Below, piece after piece: positions 45,005 to 55,055 of a stretch of DNA of 64,000 nucleotides (the stretch's first letter is position 1; the number at the start of each line of letters is the position of its first letter). The stretch covers positions 1-64,000 of the forward strand of contig JAQBZB010000009.1 in assembly GCA_027622275.1 (NCBI GenBank), in the 5' to 3' direction. The translations under genes and the position numbers were made by a program. The DNA comes from Planctomycetota bacterium (GTDB lineage Bacteria; Planctomycetota; Planctomycetia; Pirellulales; Pirellulaceae). The notes beneath the pieces are model-generated. The model was given only the letters and a program-made list of their open reading frames with translations. It was not told the DNA's origin and made no database searches.

Positions 45005-46450
45005 TTACTTAGGCTCGGCCCCCAAGCTGTCCTTCAACAATAGCCCCTTGATCTCAACCGATGCAGCCCAAAGTTCGCCGAGTGCTTCAATGTAAGCCAA
45101 ATTCGTCTGGGAGAACGTCGTTTGCGCGGTCAGCACATCCAAATACGCGATCTCGCCTCCCTCGTATCCCTTTTTGACAAACTCGAGAGTCGTTCGGTAG
45201 TTGTCCAGAATCCCATCCGGCTTCGAGTAGTCTTCAGCCTGATTCCGGGCGTTCGCGTAGCGTTGATAAACGGTTGCCAAGCGCCGCTGTAAACTGAGTT
45301 CGATCTTGGCCACTGCATGTTCGGCAGCCACCAGATCGGATTCGGCTTCACGAATGCCGCCCTGGTTTCGGTTCAGCCACGGGATCGGCATCGAGACTTG
45401 CAAATTGCCATTGGTGCTGCCGGTTCCGTTGTCGCTTTGCATGATGGCTTGCACGTCGATATTTGGAATGGGCTCCGCGTAAGCCCGATCGATAGCCCAT
45501 CGGGCGCGCTCGATCTCCGCGACGGCGGCCGCGATCTCAGGGCTCTCGGCAAGCAGTCTTTGCAAAGACTCGTTCTGCTCGATTTGCGTCGTAATGGTTT
45601 CGATGTCACCTGTCAGCGGACGAATCGGAATGCCGGGCGAACCAAGGACGGCGGTGAGTCGCGTCCAGGCGGCCTCTTGCGAGTTTGCGGCGTTTTTGCC
45701 GAGCAGCTGGGCCATCTGCAACGCGCCGCGGCTGCGAATCACGTCGACCTGGCTGACTTCCGCCGCGTTGAACAACGCTTCAGCCGTCTTCAGTGCGTCG
45801 TCGGCGATCGCCACCAACTGTTGCGTTACTGCCATCCGGCGCTGTGCGATCAAAACGTCATAGAACCCGAGTCGCACGTCGGTCAGAACGCGTTGCTCTT
45901 GCGCAAACGCCATCTGCTCGGCTTTGAGGATCTCCTGATCGGCCACGGCGCGGTTCAGCCTCAGCTTGTGGCCGCGCACGAATTCTTGGCTGATGTAGAC
46001 GCCTTGCTGTTCCGCTTGCCCATGACTGCCGATCTGTTGACCGGAGTAGCCGAGTACCGTGTTGGGATACAGCCCGACTTGCACCCATTTGCCTTGCGCC
46101 GCATTGACGTGCGCCCGCGCTTCGATCAGCGACGGATTCGTGGCGAGGGCGATCTCTTCGAGCTGTTCCAGCGTCAACTCGCCGTCCCACGGTGCTCCGA
46201 TTTGAGGTTCAGGAGCGGGCATGAGCCCGTCCGCTGTACTGACGATGGGTTCCGGAAGTGGCGGGTCGCCGGGCTGTGCGTACGCGACGGGAAGTATTTC
46301 AGCGGCCGGTGCGGGAACGCAGGCGAGCGATGATTGTTCGGGTGCCGCACGAACGCCAAGACTGAACAGCGTCGCGCGCTCCGGCCGCGGCAGCCTGCAC
46401 CCGACGAACAGGCAGACGCAGAGCACAGTCGTGATGCGGGCAAGTGTCAT
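45005..46450 (-). CDS. TolC/CusC-like outer-membrane factor
   Basis: LEQLEEIALATNPSLIEARAHVNAAQGKWVQVGLYPNTVLGYSGQQIGSHGQAEQQGVYISQEFVRGHKLRLNRA. Confidence 0.92.
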   Translation of the reverse strand: MTLARITTVLCVCLFVGCRLPRPERATLFSLGVRAAPEQSSLACVPAPAAEILPVAYAQPGDPPLPEPIVSTADGLMPAPEPQIGAPWDGELTLEQLEEIALATNPSLIEARAHVNAAQGKWVQVGLYPNTVLGYSGQQIGSHGQAEQQGVYISQEFVRGHKLRLNRAVADQEILKAEQMAFAQEQRVLTDVRLGFYDVLIAQRRMAVTQQLVAIADDALKTAEALFNAAEVSQVDVIRSRGALQMAQLLGKNAANSQEAAWTRLTAVLGSPGIPIRPLTGDIETITTQIEQNESLQRLLAESPEIAAAVAEIERARWAIDRAYAEPIPNIDVQAIMQSDNGTGSTNGNLQVSMPIPWLNRNQGGIREAESDLVAAEHAVAKIELSLQRRLATVYQRYANARNQAEDYSKPDGILDNYRTTLEFVKKGYEGGEIAYLDVLTAQTTFSQTNLAYIEALGELWAASVEIKGLLLKDSLGAEPK

Positions 46451-46501
46451 GAATGATTATTTTCCATCGCACTCCGAACCGTGCATTGATGATTTCCCGT
46501 A

Positions 46502-46556
46502 GTGGTGGCTTCCAGCCGCCACTGGACAACGACGGCTGGCAGCCGCCACCACGAAA
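46502..46556. repeat. REP-like imperfect hairpin GTGGTGGCTTCCAGCCG...CGGCTGGCAGCCGCCACCAC
   Basis: Inverted arms in the intergenic region. Confidence 0.65.
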
Positions 46557-46779
46557 ACCGGGAAGTACGGATGATGAAGTGCGACAGCAGCGAGACGGAT
46601 ATGAGGAAGGGTGGGACAACTCGCCACCAAGCTGCTGGCGGCGAGTCTGGGTTCATCCCTATATCCGTTATCGTCGTCAAAGTTGTAGAGCTTGAACCAA
46701 TCGTGACAGTCGAAGCGGGAGCAGTTATAGTCAGTTTGAGATCACCGCCGAAACAGCTGCCCCGCATGCGGAGTGCCCC

Positions 46780-47946
46780 ATGTTCGATCGACGTGTCCTG
46801 CTGAAGCAGGCTAGCCTGTTCGCTCCCTTCTGGTTAGCGGGGCGCAGCGCCTTTGCGGCGCCCGACCCAAAAACGGGACTGATCGTTCATACGCTCGTGC
46901 CACACAACGCCGAGCCGCCGCTCGGCTCCTTGGTTCAGTCTTGGATCACGCCGAACGAACTGTTCTATGTCCGCAGCCACGCGCCCGTGCCGAAGGTCGA
47001 TGCCGACACGTTTCGGCTTTCCGTCGAAGGAATTGTCGAGCGGCCGTTCGAGATTTCACTCGCGCAGCTGCAAAGCGACTTCAAGCGGCAAGCGGTTGTC
47101 GCGACGATGACCTGTGCCGGCAATCGCCGCTCGGAGCACAGTCTGGTCAAGGAAGTTTCGGGCGTGCCGTGGGGCGCGGGAGCCATCGGAAATGCTGAAT
47201 GGGCGGGGGTGCGATTGTCGGATCTGCTGAAGAGAGCAGGAATCAAGGAAGGGGCCAAGCACGTTTGGTTCGACGGCGTCGACGAAGTCGAGCACAAAGG
47301 CGGCATGATTCCTTTCGGTGCCTCGATCCCGCTCGATAAAGCAATGAGCGATACCGAGTCGATGCCGGGCGCGCTAGTTTGTTACGAAATGAACGGCCAA
47401 CCGCTGTCGCCGGATCATGGCTTTCCGATACGAACGGTCGTGCCGGGCTATATAGGTGCTCGCAGCGTCAAATGGCTTGGCAAGATCATCGTCAGCGATC
47501 GTCCGTCGACGAATCACTACGTTGCCGGGGCTTACAAACTCGTGACGGAAGGGACGGAGGACGAATTGGCCTCGAGTCCGCCTCTCGATAACTTCGTGAT
47601 CAATTCGGTGACTTGCGTGCCCGCAGCGGGGAGCAAAGTCGTAACAGGAAAACTGGAAGTCAGCGGCTATGCATTGGCGACCGGCTTGCAGGGAGAGACG
47701 ATCGCAAAGGTCGAGCTATCGACGGATGGCGGCAAGAGCTGGACGAAAGCCCGCTTCACGAGCCAGGCCAAGCCGTACTGTTGGAGGTTGTGGAAAGCTG
47801 ACCTCGAAGTCCACGCCAGGACGTCGGAGATCATCGCCCGCGCCGTCGACTCGACCGGCGGCGTGCAGCCTGAAACGGTGGTGTGGAACCTGAAAGGCTA
47901 CATGTTCAACGCCTGGCACAAGACTTCCGTAAGAGTTAGCCCGTAG
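46780..47946 (+). CDS. Sulfite-oxidase-like molybdopterin-dependent oxidoreductase
   Basis: VVATMTCAGNRRSEHSLVKEVSGVPWGAGAIGNAEWAGVRLSDLL; DHGFPIRTVVPGYIGARSVKWLGKIIVS. Confidence 0.93.
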   Translation: MFDRRVLLKQASLFAPFWLAGRSAFAAPDPKTGLIVHTLVPHNAEPPLGSLVQSWITPNELFYVRSHAPVPKVDADTFRLSVEGIVERPFEISLAQLQSDFKRQAVVATMTCAGNRRSEHSLVKEVSGVPWGAGAIGNAEWAGVRLSDLLKRAGIKEGAKHVWFDGVDEVEHKGGMIPFGASIPLDKAMSDTESMPGALVCYEMNGQPLSPDHGFPIRTVVPGYIGARSVKWLGKIIVSDRPSTNHYVAGAYKLVTEGTEDELASSPPLDNFVINSVTCVPAAGSKVVTGKLEVSGYALATGLQGETIAKVELSTDGGKSWTKARFTSQAKPYCWRLWKADLEVHARTSEIIARAVDSTGGVQPETVVWNLKGYMFNAWHKTSVRVSP

Positions 47947-47963
47947 GCGTGGACAGAGAAAAG

Positions 47964-48045
47964 TAGGCCGGACCAAGGCTTTGCGCAGTTCCGGCATCCA
48001 CACCAATTCAACTGCCGGAACCACGCAGAGCCTCGTTCCGGCCTA
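47964..48045. repeat. REP-like hairpin with 33-nt arms
   Basis: TAGGCCGGACCAAGGCTTTGCGCAGTTCCGGCA (47964-47996) / TGCCGGAACCACGCAGAGCCTCGTTCCGGCCTA (48013-48045). Confidence 0.9.
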
Positions 48046-48050
48046 ATCGG

Positions 48051-48310
48051 CTACGATTTGCGAGTAACGATATGAATGACAATGCCGACGAATAAACCGA
48101 CGAAACCACCGACTCCCGCGGCAATCGAATGCCCGTTCGGATCGCCAGAGCCACGGAAATACGGTGCCAGCACAATCGAGCCAATCACGGCACCAAGAAA
48201 CGCGGGAAGCAGATACTCGCGAATGCGAAACGGCGGTGCGTTGGTTTTGCAGGTGATTCATTTGTGCCGGAATCGGTCTTGGGCGAGGCGTATGGATTGG
48301 AATCATTCAT
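48051..48310 (-). pseudogene. Small membrane-protein cassette ORF with one frameshift
   Basis: MNDSNPYASPKTDSGTNESPAKP then, in another frame, APPFRIREYLLPAFLGAVIGSIVLAPYFRGSGDPNGHSIAAGVGGFVGLFVGIVIHIVTRKS*. Confidence 0.6.
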
Positions 48311-48334
48311 CAGCGATCTCGGGTGAGTTCGATC

Positions 48335-48472
48335 ACCCAACGGTTGGCACGGCCGTCACCGCGCTCATCGAAGGCTACCAACGTCGAGCAAGAGTTGATT
48401 GTCCAACGACACGAGCGTTGAAGCAAGAGCGAAGGTGTGGCCGAAGGCCCCAGCGGGCATGCATTGTTGGGC
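48335..48472 (-). other. attC-like recombination site (site 3)
   Basis: Minus strand: GCCCAAC ... GTTGGGT (RYYYAAC/GTTRRRY both canonical), 138 bp, starts 14 nt after the LRR ORF stop. Confidence 0.6.
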
Positions 48473-48485
48473 CGGCCGCCAGAGA

Positions 48486-49154
48486 TCACGGTATAATTTT
48501 GCAGTTTGGAAGAGCCTGTCGTAACTCTTGCACCTGTTCATCGCTTACCCGTGTATAGACGAGGCTAAGCGAGCCGAGGTTTTTCAACCCTGCCAGCGGC
48601 GATAGATCGTTCACCAGTGTTTCGTTGAGGCGAAGCTCTTTGAGGTTCTTCAACTTCGCCAGGGGCGATAGATCGGTCACTGGTGTTCTGCGGAGGTCAA
48701 GATCGCTGAGGTTCTCCAAAGCCGCCAATGGTGATAGGTCGGTTACTAATGTGCCATCGAGATGAAGCGATTCGAGATTCTTCAATTCCGCCAGGGGCGA
48801 TAGATCGGTCACTGATGTATAGCTAAGCCGAAGCGATTCTAGCTTCTTCAGCTCCGCCAAAGTCGAGAGATCACTCACTTGTGTATTTTTGAGGTGGACG
48901 TAATACACCCGCCCCCCAAACAACCGATACTTCAAAACACTGAACAGACCAGATTCTCCACTTCTGGAAACATAAACCCCCTGCGCCGCACTGACCCAAG
49001 CAATCGCCTTTTTCTCTTTCCGTACTTGCTCCAACTCCCAGCCAACCCAGCCGAGAACAGCACCCAGGACTGTAAACACGATCAATAGCGTCCGAAGGCT
49101 GAATCGAAGCCAGCGACGACGTGTATTGGCGGGTGTTTCGTTGAGCGTGGCCAT
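48486..49154 (-). CDS. Leucine-rich-repeat membrane protein
   Basis: RWLRFSLRTLLIVFTVLGAVLGWVGWELEQVRKEKKAIAWV then repeated VTDLSPLAELKNLESLHLDGT. Confidence 0.9.
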   Translation of the reverse strand: MATLNETPANTRRRWLRFSLRTLLIVFTVLGAVLGWVGWELEQVRKEKKAIAWVSAAQGVYVSRSGESGLFSVLKYRLFGGRVYYVHLKNTQVSDLSTLAELKKLESLRLSYTSVTDLSPLAELKNLESLHLDGTLVTDLSPLAALENLSDLDLRRTPVTDLSPLAKLKNLKELRLNETLVNDLSPLAGLKNLGSLSLVYTRVSDEQVQELRQALPNCKIIP

Positions 49155-49178
49155 GGTGATTGGCTAGGAGTTTGGTCT

Positions 49179-49327
49179 GCCCAACGGGAAGATTTGCCGT
49201 CGTCGCCGTGAACGAAGCGGAAGACGTTGGAACAAGAGACGATTTTAACAACGCCGCGCACGTCGCGCCCAGAACGTAGGCGACCGCCGCATGGATGCCG
49301 CGGCTTTGCGGCAAATCTGTGTTGTCC
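49179..49327 (-). other. attC-like recombination site (site 1)
   Basis: Minus strand: GGACAAC-ACA-GATTTGCCG ... CGGCAAATC-TTCCC-GTTGGGC, 149 bp; near-identical to site 2. Confidence 0.65.
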
Positions 49328-49354
49328 GCCCGTTGTGGTGTCCATTGGCAACAA

Positions 49355-49675
49355 TCAGTCACCAATCACCGCGTTTCGCTGGACGTCGTTTGCAAGCGTG
49401 TAAAGCTGGCCGCGCAAGTCATCAAGGCGATCATTGAATTCACGCCAGTTGTCGTCATTGACCGTGTGACCATTGACAGCCGCGAGTACGAGATCGTTGA
49501 AACTACCCATGCCGCCATACGCACCAAGCAAATGTTCCACGCCGGAGAAGTCGCCATTTTGGATGCGTCGGAGTGAAGTCTCCATCCATTTGGCCCAGTG
49601 AGATTCGCCAGCACTCCGCAGGAGTTGCGCGGTTTCGCGTATGCGTTCGCAGAGTTGTGTGGTCTTTGGACCCAT
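49355..49675 (-). CDS. DUF6966-like small protein (family name from memory)
   Basis: LLRSAGESHWAKWMETSLRRIQNGDFSGVEHLLGAYGGMGSFNDLVL; start chosen at MGPKTTQ. Confidence 0.7.
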   Translation of the reverse strand: MGPKTTQLCERIRETAQLLRSAGESHWAKWMETSLRRIQNGDFSGVEHLLGAYGGMGSFNDLVLAAVNGHTVNDDNWREFNDRLDDLRGQLYTLANDVQRNAVIGD

Positions 49676-49691
49676 GGAACAAACTTGCAGC

Positions 49692-49840
49692 GGACAACGG
49701 GTAGACTTGCCGTCGCCGCCGTGAACGAAGCGGGCGACGTTGGAACAAGAGACGATTTTAACAACGGGACGCACGTCGCGCCCAGAACGAAGGCGACCGC
49801 GGCATGGATGCCGCGGCTTTGCGGCAAATCTGTGTTGTGC
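49692..49840 (-). other. attC-like recombination site (site 2)
   Basis: Minus strand: GCACAAC-ACA-GATTTGCCG ... CGGCAAGTC-TACCC-GTTGTCC, 149 bp. Confidence 0.6.
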
Positions 49841-49852
49841 GACGTTGCGTTG

Positions 49853-50305
49853 CTATTCCGCCCACCACTTGATTGCGCCTGCAAGTTGTTCCCGTGCGTG
49901 ATCGGAAAACGGTAATTCCGAATAGGCCGCCAAAAGGTTACGAATCAGCCGTGTTTGTACGGGGTTGAGAATTGGTTTGATTTGCTCCGAGATCGTTGAG
50001 TCGGTTTCCCATTCATCGGCACCAAGAATCCACGCAATGGTTTCAGCAACAGTTAGACCGTCCGAAGTAAAGGATTCGCGTGCGATGGCAGGCAAGTAGT
50101 GGAGCAAAGCGTCGGCCGACATGCAGTCCATCGGAATGACGGCGAACAGTCGCTCGGACGACTGAAGTACAGAATTGCAATCTGTTCCGTCGAGAGTGTC
50201 TGCGACGTCGGGACAGTCGAAGCAGTCGTCGCCGGGATGAATTACGACGCAAGTAGGGCGTTCAAAAGAGAAAGCGTCGTGAATGCGAGAAACAAGGTCA
50301 TCCAT
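49853..50305 (-). CDS. DUF6714-like hypothetical protein (family name from memory)
   Basis: MDDLVSRIHDAFSFERPTCVVIHPGDDCFDCPDVADTLDGTDCN...FFAVIP-like pattern. Confidence 0.6.
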   Translation of the reverse strand: MDDLVSRIHDAFSFERPTCVVIHPGDDCFDCPDVADTLDGTDCNSVLQSSERLFAVIPMDCMSADALLHYLPAIARESFTSDGLTVAETIAWILGADEWETDSTISEQIKPILNPVQTRLIRNLLAAYSELPFSDHAREQLAGAIKWWAE

Positions 50306-50466
50306 CGAATTAGATTGAGTCGCACAACAATGTTTCCGACGACAACTTGTCGCAATGTACGGTTAAGCTAGGCAAGCTGGCTTGCGACTTCGGTCTCTGC
50401 GGATGATTATTGGTGATTCGGGACCGCTTCGCAATCGAAACTGCCTTGGATTCTTGCGAGGTCGGC

Positions 50467-51636
50467 CTATTCGTCTTCAAGGATGATCCGCGCGGTGGCG
50501 TACATGCCGGGGCGGAGGCGGCCGGTCGGGTTGGGCAGATCGATCTCGGTGCGGAGCGTTCTGGAGGAGGGATCGAGCACCCAGGCGGTGCGTGTGACCT
50601 GACCTTCGATTTCCTCGCCGCCCAGGGCTTGGATGCGGATGAAGACGCGATTGCCGACTTTGACCAAGGGAGCTTCCAACTCGGGGATCTCGGTCACGAT
50701 GCGGACAACGTCGGCGCGGACCACGACGAACAGCGATGGCGAGCCGCTCCCTTGTGGCGGTCGGACCAGATGGCCGGTATCCACATTCCGCTGGGTCACG
50801 ACGCCGGCGAACGGCGCGCGGATCTTGGCGTAAGCGAGCATCGACTGCATGTGGTCGACGTTGGCCTGGGCGACTTCCAGGCGAGCCGTGGCCGCGGCTT
50901 CGTCGGCCCGCGCCTTGGCCACCGTGGCTTCCGCTTCACCCAGCGCTGCCTTGGCCGAATCGACTCTCGCGGCGACTTCCCGTCGGCCCGCGTCGGCGGC
51001 GCGGAACTGATTGAGCGTTTCGTCCGCCAGTTTTTGGCTGACGGACCCTTCGCCGGCGAGTTGCTGGATGCGGGTCTTCTCGGCCTCCCAGCGCTGGTAT
51101 TCGCCTTCGGCACGCATGACGCCGGCTTCCGCTTCGCGGATTTTCGCCTGGGCACTTTCAGCGGCCTTTTGGACCACGATGATCGCTTGAGCAGCTTGTT
51201 CCAACTCGGCTTCGGCCTGTGCGTGTAGCGCCTGCTTCTGCCGCAACTCCTGCTCCATTTCCGGCACCCAGATCTCGGCCAGCACATCGTTCTCCTTCAC
51301 GAGGTCGCCGATGTCGGCGATCGGTGCTTGGCTCGGCTGCCCGTCCGCGCCTTCGACCGTCCGCGATTTAAGCACGTAGCCCTCGATCTTGGCATACAAC
51401 GGTGCCTGTTCGAACGGTTCAATTCGAGCCGGTTGGGTCGTCGTCCTGGGTGGCGTCTCGGGGTCCGGCTTGGTTTCGCCGATTTGCGGCGTCGCAGCCG
51501 CCTGGGCGGGATTGGCGGAGCCTTTGCCCTGACTGTCCTTTTGAGTTGTTGCGGCAGCGTGGCCAGTGCAGCCAGCCAACGTCAGCGTCAAAGCACCGAC
51601 GGCAAGCCACATCACAGTTCCGAGATTTCGTTTCAT
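50467..51636 (-). CDS. RND periplasmic adaptor (HlyD family)
   Basis: MKRNLGTVMWLAVGALTLTLAGC lipobox; YAKIEGYVLKSRTVE; ATG overlaps the RND stop codon. Confidence 0.92.
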   Translation of the reverse strand: MKRNLGTVMWLAVGALTLTLAGCTGHAAATTQKDSQGKGSANPAQAAATPQIGETKPDPETPPRTTTQPARIEPFEQAPLYAKIEGYVLKSRTVEGADGQPSQAPIADIGDLVKENDVLAEIWVPEMEQELRQKQALHAQAEAELEQAAQAIIVVQKAAESAQAKIREAEAGVMRAEGEYQRWEAEKTRIQQLAGEGSVSQKLADETLNQFRAADAGRREVAARVDSAKAALGEAEATVAKARADEAAATARLEVAQANVDHMQSMLAYAKIRAPFAGVVTQRNVDTGHLVRPPQGSGSPSLFVVVRADVVRIVTEIPELEAPLVKVGNRVFIRIQALGGEEIEGQVTRTAWVLDPSSRTLRTEIDLPNPTGRLRPGMYATARIILEDE

Positions 51637-54600
51637 CAGGCGGCTCCTGGATCGTTCAGATTCGATGCGTCTTCGTCTTCGTGATAATGCATGCTCTCCG
51701 GGTCGTCCGGGTCTAGCGAGCCCGAGGCGGTGCTGGCTCGCCGCTGGAGGATCGCAAACATGCAAGGCAGCACGAAAAATGTGGCCAGCGTACCGGCGGC
51801 CAGGCCACCCACGACGGCGCGGCCGAGTGGTGCGTTCTGCTGGCCGGCCTCACCGATCGCCAGCGCCATCGGGATCATGCCGGCGATCATGGCGCACGTC
51901 GTCATCAACACAGCTCGCATGCGGCTTTCCGCGCCGGTGACGGCGGCGGTTTCAATCGCGCTGCCCTGGCGGCGGATCTTTTCGGCGAACGTGACCAGCA
52001 GAATCGCGTTGGCCATCGCCACTCCGACGGCCATGATCGAGCCGATGAACGATTGAACGTTCAGCGTCGTCCCAGTGACGAACAACAGCAGCACGACTCC
52101 CGCCACCACGGCCGGTGCCGTCGAGACCGTCGCCAGTGCCAGCCGAAGCGACTGGAAATTCGCGGCCAGGATCAGGAAGATGACGACGATGGCCATCAGC
52201 AGTCCGAGGCCCAAGCCGGCCAGCATCTCGCGCATCGGCGGGATTTGGCCGCGCACTTGCAGCTTCACGCCGCGCGGTGGTTCCCCCGCCCGGTCGAGCG
52301 CGGCGGTCACTTCACGCGCCACGCTGCCCAAGTCCGCACCGACGATGTTTGCCGTCAGACCGACCTCGCGCTGCATGTTGTAGCGGTCAAACTGGCCGGG
52401 CATCGTGCCTTCAGTCACTTCGGCGACATCGCGGACCCGCACGGTGGAGTTCGAGGTCGCCGTGTTGCCGTGGTTGCTGCGGCTGACTGGGATCGACTTC
52501 AATTCGTCGATCGAATCGATTGCGTCGAACCCTTCGTTGTCGCGGACCACCGCTCGCGGCAGCTCGACTTGCACCTGATAGCCGCGGCCGCTCTTCGGGT
52601 CGGCCCAGAAGATCGGCACAGTGAACCGGGTCGATGACGTCGCGGCCACCAGTGAGTTGGACACGTCGATCGGCGTGACGCCGGCCAACCCGGCCCGCTC
52701 TCGATCGACGTTCACTTCGATCGTCGGGTAGTCGAGCGACTGGGCGAACTGCAAGTCCCGCAGCGCGGGAACCTTGTTTAACTCGGCGTACAACTTCTCG
52801 GCGTAGGCACGGCTGACGGCCATGTCCGGGCCGCTGACGGCGATCTCGACCGGCGTCGGCGAACCGAAACTCATTACCTCGTTGATGATGTCGGACGGCT
52901 CGAACGAGAAGCGCACGCCGGCCAATTGCGGGTCGGTGGTCAGTTGGTCCCGTAGCCGCTCCTGCGCCTGGGCCACGTCGATTTCTGCACCGTCCTTCAG
53001 GTCCACCCACAGCACGGTCTCTTCCGGCCCCCGCGACCAGTGAAACACGGCGTTGATCGGATAACTGGATGGGTTCGTGCCCACGTAGGCCAGCGTCAGG
53101 TCGACGTTTTCCCGTCCCACTTCCTGTTCGATTCTCTCGATGACTCGCAGCGCGATCTGCTCGCTGCGGCCCAGGTGCGTGCCATCCGGGGCGCGGACGC
53201 GGACGCGAAACTGATCGGCCCCGACGCGCGGAAAGATGTCGAGTCCTAACTGCGTCCCCAGTCCGGCGATCACCGCCGCGCTACCGACCAGATACACGGC
53301 GACCAGCGCCAGGCGGAACGGCAGTACGCGAGTCAGTAGCCACTGGTATCCCGATCGCAGGCGGTCGAGGATCGGCGCGTGCCGCTGAGCCGCCTCGTCG
53401 TGCCCGCGCAGCAGCCAGATCGACAACACCGGCACGAACGTACTGGAGAGGATATAGGAGGCGATCATCGCAAATCCGACGGCCATCGCCAGCGGCACGA
53501 ACAGCGACCGCGCGGCCCCGTGCATAAAGAACGCTGAAATGAAGACGGCCAGAATGCAGACCATCGCCAGGAACCGGGGCACGGCCGTTTGCGCGTTGCC
53601 GAGTTTCACCGCACGGGCGATCGAGCCCACACGCTCCATCTGTGAGTGGATGTTCTCGATTTCGACGGTCGCCTCGTCAACCAGAATGCCGATCGCCAGC
53701 GCCAGCCCGCCGAGCGTCATCAAGTTAAGCGTCTGGCCGGTCAGCCACAGCATCAGCACCGAGGCCATCAACGCCAGCGGGATGTTCAGCACGACGACCA
53801 GCGAGCTGCGCCAGTCGCGCAGAAACACCAGGATCATCAGTCCGACCAGCGCCGCTCCCAACGCACCTTCGACAACGACACCGGTGACGCCGCGGGTGAC
53901 GTAGGGCGTCTGGTCGAACTCGAAGCTGACGCGGATGTCGTCCGGCAGCACGGCCTGCATGGCGGGCACGGCGGCTTTGATTTCATTGACTACGGAGAGC
54001 GTCGAGGCGTCGGCCCGCTTCGTCGCCAGGATGTACACCGCGCGGCGGCCGTTGACCAGCGAATAGCCGGACGGCACGTCCATGAAGTCGCGGACCGTGC
54101 CCACGTCGCGCAGATAAACGGGGCGGCCCGCTTCGCTGCGGATCGGCGAGTTGGCCAGGTCGTTCACGTCCTTGACGACCGAATTGACCGGCACGATGGG
54201 AAACTTGTCGCCGACCGGGATGTTGCCCGACGGGCTGAGGCGGTTGTTCTGAGCCAGCGCCGTGACGACTTCTTCAGGTGACATGCCGTACGCTTGAAGC
54301 CGCTGCGGATCGACCGTCACGACCACAGTTCGCTGGCTGCCCCCGAACGGCGGCGGGGCCGAGACCCCCGGCAGCGCCGAGAACATCGGCCGCACGAGGA
54401 ACAGTGCGAGATCCTGAATCTCGGCGATTGTCCGCGTCTCACTCGACAACACCAACCGCCCGACCGGCACGCTGCCCGTATCGAACCGCATCACAAACGG
54501 CGACACGGTGCCAGGCGGCATGAACGCCTGCGAGCGGTTCACGTAGTTAATCGTTTCGGCCATGGCCTGCGCCATGTTCGTGCCGGGATGAAAGGTCAGC

Positions 54601-55055
54601 TTCATCAGGGCGACGCTGTGGATGTTCCGCGACTCGACGTGATGAATGCCGCTGATGTACAGGAAGTGGTATTCGTAGTAGTTGGTCAGGTAGCCTTCCA
54701 TCTGCGCCGGGTCCATGCCGCCGTACGGCTGGCAGACGTAGATGACCGGCAGATTCAAGGCGGGAAAGACGTCGACTTCCATCCCTTTCGGCAGCGCGTC
54801 CGGGTACGGCAACCCCAACCCCTGACACACCGGTTTTCCGACGGCCATGAAGCTGCCCAGCACGATGCCCACGATGGCGATCAACACTGCGATCGGATGC
54901 CGCAGGGCCGACAGAATCAATTTCACCGCAAAATCACCTTTCCAAGCCCCCGTGACCCGCAGCCGCGGATCAAATTGCTCTCCGACTCGGTCCTTCGTGG
55001 TCCCGACAGCTGCGGTAAAATCGTTTGCGAGCCGCGATTCTCTGTTTGTCTGCAC
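51636..55055 (-). CDS. HAE1/AcrB-like RND transporter (RND5)
   Basis: VFPALNLPVIYVCQPYGGMDPAQMEGYLTNYYEYHFLYISGIHHVESRNIHSVALMKLTF; start may be internal, at KLILSALRHPIAVLIAIVGIVLGSF. Confidence 0.93.
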   Translation of the reverse strand: MQTNRESRLANDFTAAVGTTKDRVGEQFDPRLRVTGAWKGDFAVKLILSALRHPIAVLIAIVGIVLGSFMAVGKPVCQGLGLPYPDALPKGMEVDVFPALNLPVIYVCQPYGGMDPAQMEGYLTNYYEYHFLYISGIHHVESRNIHSVALMKLTFHPGTNMAQAMAETINYVNRSQAFMPPGTVSPFVMRFDTGSVPVGRLVLSSETRTIAEIQDLALFLVRPMFSALPGVSAPPPFGGSQRTVVVTVDPQRLQAYGMSPEEVVTALAQNNRLSPSGNIPVGDKFPIVPVNSVVKDVNDLANSPIRSEAGRPVYLRDVGTVRDFMDVPSGYSLVNGRRAVYILATKRADASTLSVVNEIKAAVPAMQAVLPDDIRVSFEFDQTPYVTRGVTGVVVEGALGAALVGLMILVFLRDWRSSLVVVLNIPLALMASVLMLWLTGQTLNLMTLGGLALAIGILVDEATVEIENIHSQMERVGSIARAVKLGNAQTAVPRFLAMVCILAVFISAFFMHGAARSLFVPLAMAVGFAMIASYILSSTFVPVLSIWLLRGHDEAAQRHAPILDRLRSGYQWLLTRVLPFRLALVAVYLVGSAAVIAGLGTQLGLDIFPRVGADQFRVRVRAPDGTHLGRSEQIALRVIERIEQEVGRENVDLTLAYVGTNPSSYPINAVFHWSRGPEETVLWVDLKDGAEIDVAQAQERLRDQLTTDPQLAGVRFSFEPSDIINEVMSFGSPTPVEIAVSGPDMAVSRAYAEKLYAELNKVPALRDLQFAQSLDYPTIEVNVDRERAGLAGVTPIDVSNSLVAATSSTRFTVPIFWADPKSGRGYQVQVELPRAVVRDNEGFDAIDSIDELKSIPVSRSNHGNTATSNSTVRVRDVAEVTEGTMPGQFDRYNMQREVGLTANIVGADLGSVAREVTAALDRAGEPPRGVKLQVRGQIPPMREMLAGLGLGLLMAIVVIFLILAANFQSLRLALATVSTAPAVVAGVVLLLFVTGTTLNVQSFIGSIMAVGVAMANAILLVTFAEKIRRQGSAIETAAVTGAESRMRAVLMTTCAMIAGMIPMALAIGEAGQQNAPLGRAVVGGLAAGTLATFFVLPCMFAILQRRASTASGSLDPDDPESMHYHEDEDASNLNDPGAA

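Follow-up and report, generated by a model that had tools for sequence, protein, structure and literature searches.

What kind of platform assembled a row of gene cassettes in a stretch of planctomycete DNA that holds no integrase? Integrons are the best-known bacterial machine for collecting and shuffling genes and have spread antibiotic resistance, and to our knowledge all known integrons use the integrase IntI, whose I2 domain is fitted to the extrahelical bases of the attC site. A preliminary description of the window (the whole 64,000-nucleotide stretch of DNA that was analyzed) proposed an orphan integron array, or CALIN. Comparison of this sequence with its relatives leads us to consider it likely that the array is instead an orphan of another, integron-like system, one that is independent of IntI and belongs to the Planctomycetota, mainly the Pirellulaceae.

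On the minus strand, where all array features lie, the order is attI-like motif, box GTTGTGC, DUF6714-like ORF, site 2, DUF6966 ORF, site 1, leucine-rich-repeat (LRR) ORF, site 3 and a broken small ORF, and positions 48335-50328 make up three complete cassettes with attC-like sites between them. The attI-like site (50329-50389) has its core, CGACAAGTTGTCGTCGGAAACATT, at 50329-50352, abutting the GTT of the first cassette, and the additional box GTTGTGC that had been reported at 50322-50328 is present and proves to be the start of that cassette, directly behind the attI-like motif. Cassette A, measured from G^TT to G^TT, spans 49698-50327; its upstream box GTTGTGCGAC pairs perfectly over 10 nt with the R'' box of site 2, GTCGCACAAC, and its ORF (49853-50305, 150 aa) has a weak likeness to DUF6714 (PF20461, E = 0.0029, under the cut-off for that family). 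Site 2 (49692-49840, 149 nt; R'' GCACAAC, R' GTTGTCC) scores 153.8 bits with our covariance model R1, of which it is one of the building sequences. Cassette B, a unit of 513 nt (49185-49697), begins with the R' box of site 2, GTTGTCCGC, which pairs over 9 nt with the R'' box of site 1, GCGGACAAC, and encodes a DUF6966 protein of 106 aa (49355-49675; PF22294, E = 8e-22); it ends in site 1 (49179-49327, 149 nt), itself a member of the model (144.8 bits). Cassette C (48341-49184) runs from the R' box of site 1, GTTGGGC, to the R'' box of site 3, GCCCAAC, a match of 7 nt, and encodes an LRR membrane protein of 222 aa (48486-49154; PF12799, E = 6e-22); site 3 (48335-48472, 138 nt; R' GTTGGGT), also a model member, scores 91.5 bits. 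These are the positions and lengths that the preliminary description gave for the three sites, and its distances from ORF stop to box and from box to ORF start hold as well, as does the near-identity of sites 1 and 2 (93% over 147 nt). Past the last site lies a fourth unit (48043-48334), a broken small ORF with no Pfam match and no closing site, in which the R' box of site 3 has no visible partner; this is probably a decayed last cassette.

Within 45005-55055 the array is flanked by an RND efflux operon, whose HlyD-like protein ends at 50467, and by a molybdopterin oxidoreductase gene, and the attI-like site lies 138 nt past the HlyD stop. Between the end of the array and a sulfite-oxidase-like gene there is a strong inverted repeat of 33 nt whose loop measures 16 nt (47966-48043, minus strand); it is probably a terminator and matched only a microRNA family by chance in Rfam. 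An Rfam scan of the window gave weak chance matches only, with no relevant family, and a plasmid search using the window array gave no match.

A feature missing from the preliminary description is that the boxes in the window agree by cassette and not by site. Because the bases that break the GTTRRRY consensus match as well, these agreements are hard to ascribe to chance. When an array is integrated, the two ends of a cassette should match while the two boxes of a site need not. In the relatives' arrays, the ends match over at least 7 nt in 145 of 202 consecutive pairs, mostly over 11-13 nt, against only 18 of 219 for the two boxes within a site, and the mean run beyond GTT is 5.98 for consecutive pairs, compared with 1.26 within sites and 1.08 under random pairing. 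The length of 11-13 nt is itself only slightly unusual, because matching in published attC sites likewise reaches 9-11 nt (PMC2727003). The cassettes stand in tandem and in one orientation (156 ORFs forward, 41 reverse), giving the tandem units with complementary R'/R'' ends by which integrons are recognized. One array (G112) holds the same cassette at three positions with 100% identity, and full-length cassette homologs between genera share 82-93% identity, comparative evidence that points to cassettes moving as whole units. The sites are repeated, palindromic and intergenic, and two of them are nearly the same, which is also what dispersed REP-like or terminator-like hairpin repeats lying by chance between small genes would look like. 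That explanation is scarcely credible here, however, since box identity tracks the cassette and not the site, a test that already contradicts it, and since cassettes recur whole at new positions and arrays begin at a common attI-like motif beside a recombinase.

Model R1, built from these sites with those of the window included, gives 14 sites for the window genome. Of 151 Pirellulaceae genomes, 34 carry such sites, and 399 genomes sampled from the phylum add two more, both from other genera. In G112 about 80 sites lie on a single strand between 3.906 and 3.963 Mb. As in integrons, the cargo is made up mainly of small proteins without known function; domains of the toxin-antitoxin, Fic, immunity and methyltransferase kinds also occur.

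When the sites of the window genome and its relatives are aligned, a fixed geometry is apparent: R'' box, 2 nt, L'', the interior of the site, L', 4 nt and R' box. RNAalifold on 18 sites yields 26 pairs, 12 of which show compensatory changes; 95.5% of cells are paired, whereas shuffling gives 81.2% and sliding no more than 54%, and no shuffle equals the real sites on paired cells or covariation score. With 150 sites, changes on both sides are seen in 21 of the 26 pairs, in an alignment fitted to the model, so that these counts lean toward the model structure. The sites have the R and L boxes, unpaired spacer and folded stem of integron sites, with covariation in the R, L and further stems. The extrahelical bases that belong on the L'' arm of an integron L stem, of which published attC sites have two or three (PMC2727003), are absent, and the L stem is a covarying, uninterrupted 10-bp helix. 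The L'' arm bears a small hairpin of 12-26 nt, also covarying, which lies between the L stem and the stem beyond it. The case for the hairpin fold rests on covariation and not on energy, because the folding energies of sites 1 and 2 are not striking (z about -0.7 to -2.0). Of the three sites in the window, a generic hairpin scan recovered site 1 alone; its L-stem rule was too strict for sites 2 and 3. About one-tenth of the sites (L235, L236, L232 and others) measure 205-211 nt and have about 70 nt inserted.

Most sites also contain a -10-like motif, TANAAT, 67-71 nt before the site end; 171 of 212 sites have it within the tested range, compared with a shuffled mean of 2.25, and an extended -10, TGNTANAAT, is present in 143 of 212. 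The short form does not fit site 3 and fits sites 2 and 1 of the window, as TAAAAT at 49755-49760, pointing at cassette B, and at 49242-49247, pointing at cassette C. From this fixed placement we infer a promoter role for the motif in these two sites and, more widely, that most sites hold a promoter aimed at the next cassette. A promoter across an attC junction is reported for a Vibrio array (PMC2945992), and given that case the novel point is the conservation of a -10-like motif in most sites. Because these motifs face the next cassette, the arrays may not depend on a single attI promoter, and if most sites do carry promoters, this would be another solution to the expression of long cassette arrays.

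The attI-like motif was located by seeking, upstream of the first site, the partner of the first R'' box. Most relatives' loci have, directly before the GTT, the pattern TGTCG, about 8-10 nt, AAC, 2-3 nt and GTT, and an inverted CGACA usually precedes the TGTCG. The core is common to the window and to the attI position of relatives' complete arrays, including those of another family of the class, and since the window has this motif its array stands at a proper entry site and not at a random place, so that it is not off-site. A second copy of the motif, identical to that of the window at 50 of 61 positions, lies on contig C135 of the window genome. There (L294 2300-3660) one attC-like site follows about 1.2 kb on, the R boxes mismatch, and an intermediate site may have decayed. 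In relatives the motif adjoins a recombinase gene, as attI adjoins the integrase gene of an integron; the window has the attI-like site only.

This recombinase is a second tyrosine recombinase, apart from IntI. A Phage_integrase search placed it next to the array start in G112, G162, G108, G102, G081 and G154, and it is also found near array sites in G116, G139, G165 and G166, a linkage seen at about ten loci within one phylum. Most loci carry its gene collinear with the array, but in G116, G139 and G165 gene and array are divergent. At more than 440 bits, its profile matches in 12 of 151 Pirellulaceae genomes, and these are 12 of the 34 genomes with sites and none of the 117 without (Fisher p = 3e-9). 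Beyond the Pirellulaceae, G482 has both the recombinase and sites, the gene lying about 3 kb from a site, and a congener (G002) has the recombinase and the attI-like motif. The proteins are about 450-500 aa long, with complete and invariant catalytic residues and an extra C-terminal domain. The I2-bearing stretch of IntI is absent from all 11 aligned members and present in 23 of 23 IntI proteins; the family scores 163-200 bits against the IntI profile (cut-off 265) and forms its own clade apart from IntI (support 100/99, and 100/100 for IntI). An integron is recognized by an integrase with the IntI-specific I2 domain, which the linked recombinase lacks, and the window is without any integrase. 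Among solved structures the best relatives are the XerC-like 4A8E and XerA 5HXY, with IntI4 (2A3V) between them. The closeness to XerA/XerC-like enzymes and the lack of I2 fit a real system acting on double-stranded sites, as Xer does at dif, in which the hairpin would serve transcription termination or stability only. We regard this as quite improbable, given that L'' and L' covary across about 110 nt in a fixed geometry, which double-strand binding does not require, and that the R and L boxes form no ordinary inverted-arm core within L'-R'.

A profile search found no member of the recombinase family in the window's own assembly or in the site-rich genomes G015, G026, G130 and G008. The nearest relatives of the recombinase in the window genome (best 191 bits, contig C468) were rejected as members because they do not cover the C-terminal domain. 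Tyrosine recombinases beside a Y1/IS91-like transposase gene (L240 5745-7717 and similar loci) have a family-like core without the C-terminal domain of the family. In another class of the phylum, G377 has two family members (L304, L305), but the model finds no site there, perhaps because the sites have diverged too far.

The earlier statement that no IntI is visible is correct for the window, but two full-length IntI genes lie elsewhere in its genome, on other contigs, and IntI is present in most site-bearing relatives, although not beside these arrays. The array could on this account be an ordinary CALIN, that is, a remnant integron array moved in trans by the genome's IntI, with sites that are an unusual local subtype of attC. 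The R boxes, GTT crossover, L stem and cassette logic are as in integrons, IntI may act in trans on the window array, and the sites could be a far attC variant that IntI also uses, as their R and L boxes, spacer and crossover GTT resemble attC. Loss of the extrahelical bases is moreover reported to lower strand choice without abolishing attC x attI recombination (PMC2727003). We nevertheless find an ordinary CALIN unlikely. Beside its own IntI the genome has an array of attC sites that are shorter and canonical, with an extrahelical base (for example L029 12550-12639, GCGT[G]AACCG versus CGGTTACGC), which the site model misses, and the loci of 30 IntI genes searched with the same model gave no confident site (best E = 0.026). 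A different recombinase, without I2, heads the relatives' arrays and co-occurs with the sites, the L stem is without extrahelical bases, and G008 has nine sites and no IntI at 1e-30. The CALIN proposal survives as far as a cassette array with three hairpin recombination sites in a window without integrase, but these sites are non-canonical, whereas a CALIN calls for two or more canonical attC sites with no integrase near them, and its placement among IntI-type CALINs is not supported.

The classical integron of the window genome lies on contig C56 (L029 9400-12640); its IntI is encoded on the minus strand, and its short canonical attC array lies on the plus strand. DUF6966 genes with matched cassette-like end boxes occur in Luteimonas, Pseudoxanthomonas and two planctomycetes (L080, L083, L115, L121), so that classical integrons may carry this gene as well.

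In the IntI-independent system that we prefer, cassettes would be added at the GTT of the attI-like site beside the recombinase. Each cassette would bring one attC-like site, folding as a single strand into an R stem, an unpaired spacer (2/4 nt), a 10-bp L stem, the L''-arm hairpin and a further stem. The recombinase would join double-stranded attI to this folded single-stranded site, as IntI does, with the strand marked by the protruding hairpin in place of extrahelical bases. What is left in the window would be the attI and three cassettes, the recombinase gene being gone, in an assembly gap, or acting from elsewhere. On balance we lean toward a second class of integron in the Planctomycetota, with a recombinase lacking I2, an extrahelical hairpin replacing the extrahelical bases and a promoter in most sites. 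Such a system could be an independent invention or a survivor that predates the co-evolution of I2 and the extrahelical bases. The platform appears integron-like in its working, yet the lack of an I2 domain and of extrahelical bases means that it should not be classed as an integron.

The origin of the pairing between I2 and extrahelical bases has been termed a chicken-and-egg problem (PMC4792948), and a working cassette platform that has neither would open it to direct testing. Such a platform would also broaden the definition of the integron, and searches that look for the domain specific to IntI and for canonical attC sites may miss it. No such system was found described in the literature searched, with most subscription papers and all bioRxiv preprints outside that search, and an earlier description may exist.

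Among known systems, the IntI integrons, such as the sedentary chromosomal Vibrio superintegron, share with the platform tandem same-strand cassettes, an attI-like entry point, a tyrosine recombinase, crossover at GTT and attC-like sites that fold and have an R box, an unpaired spacer and an L stem. The platform differs from them in that its recombinase is without the I2 insertion and falls outside the IntI clade, its L stem is without extrahelical bases and has a hairpin on the L'' arm, its attI motif is another one, the recombinase gene is often collinear with the array and most sites have a -10-like motif. Like a CALIN, the window array is without an adjacent integrase, but unlike one it keeps an attI-like site and has sites that differ from the canonical attC type. 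The core and catalytic domain of the recombinase resemble those of XerA and XerC-like recombinases, whereas an extra N-terminal stretch, the C-terminal domain and its position at cassette arrays set it apart from them. CTXphi integration via XerCD likewise uses a folded single-stranded site without extrahelical bases and a recombinase without I2 (PMC4792948), although CTXphi has neither its own recombinase nor cassette arrays.
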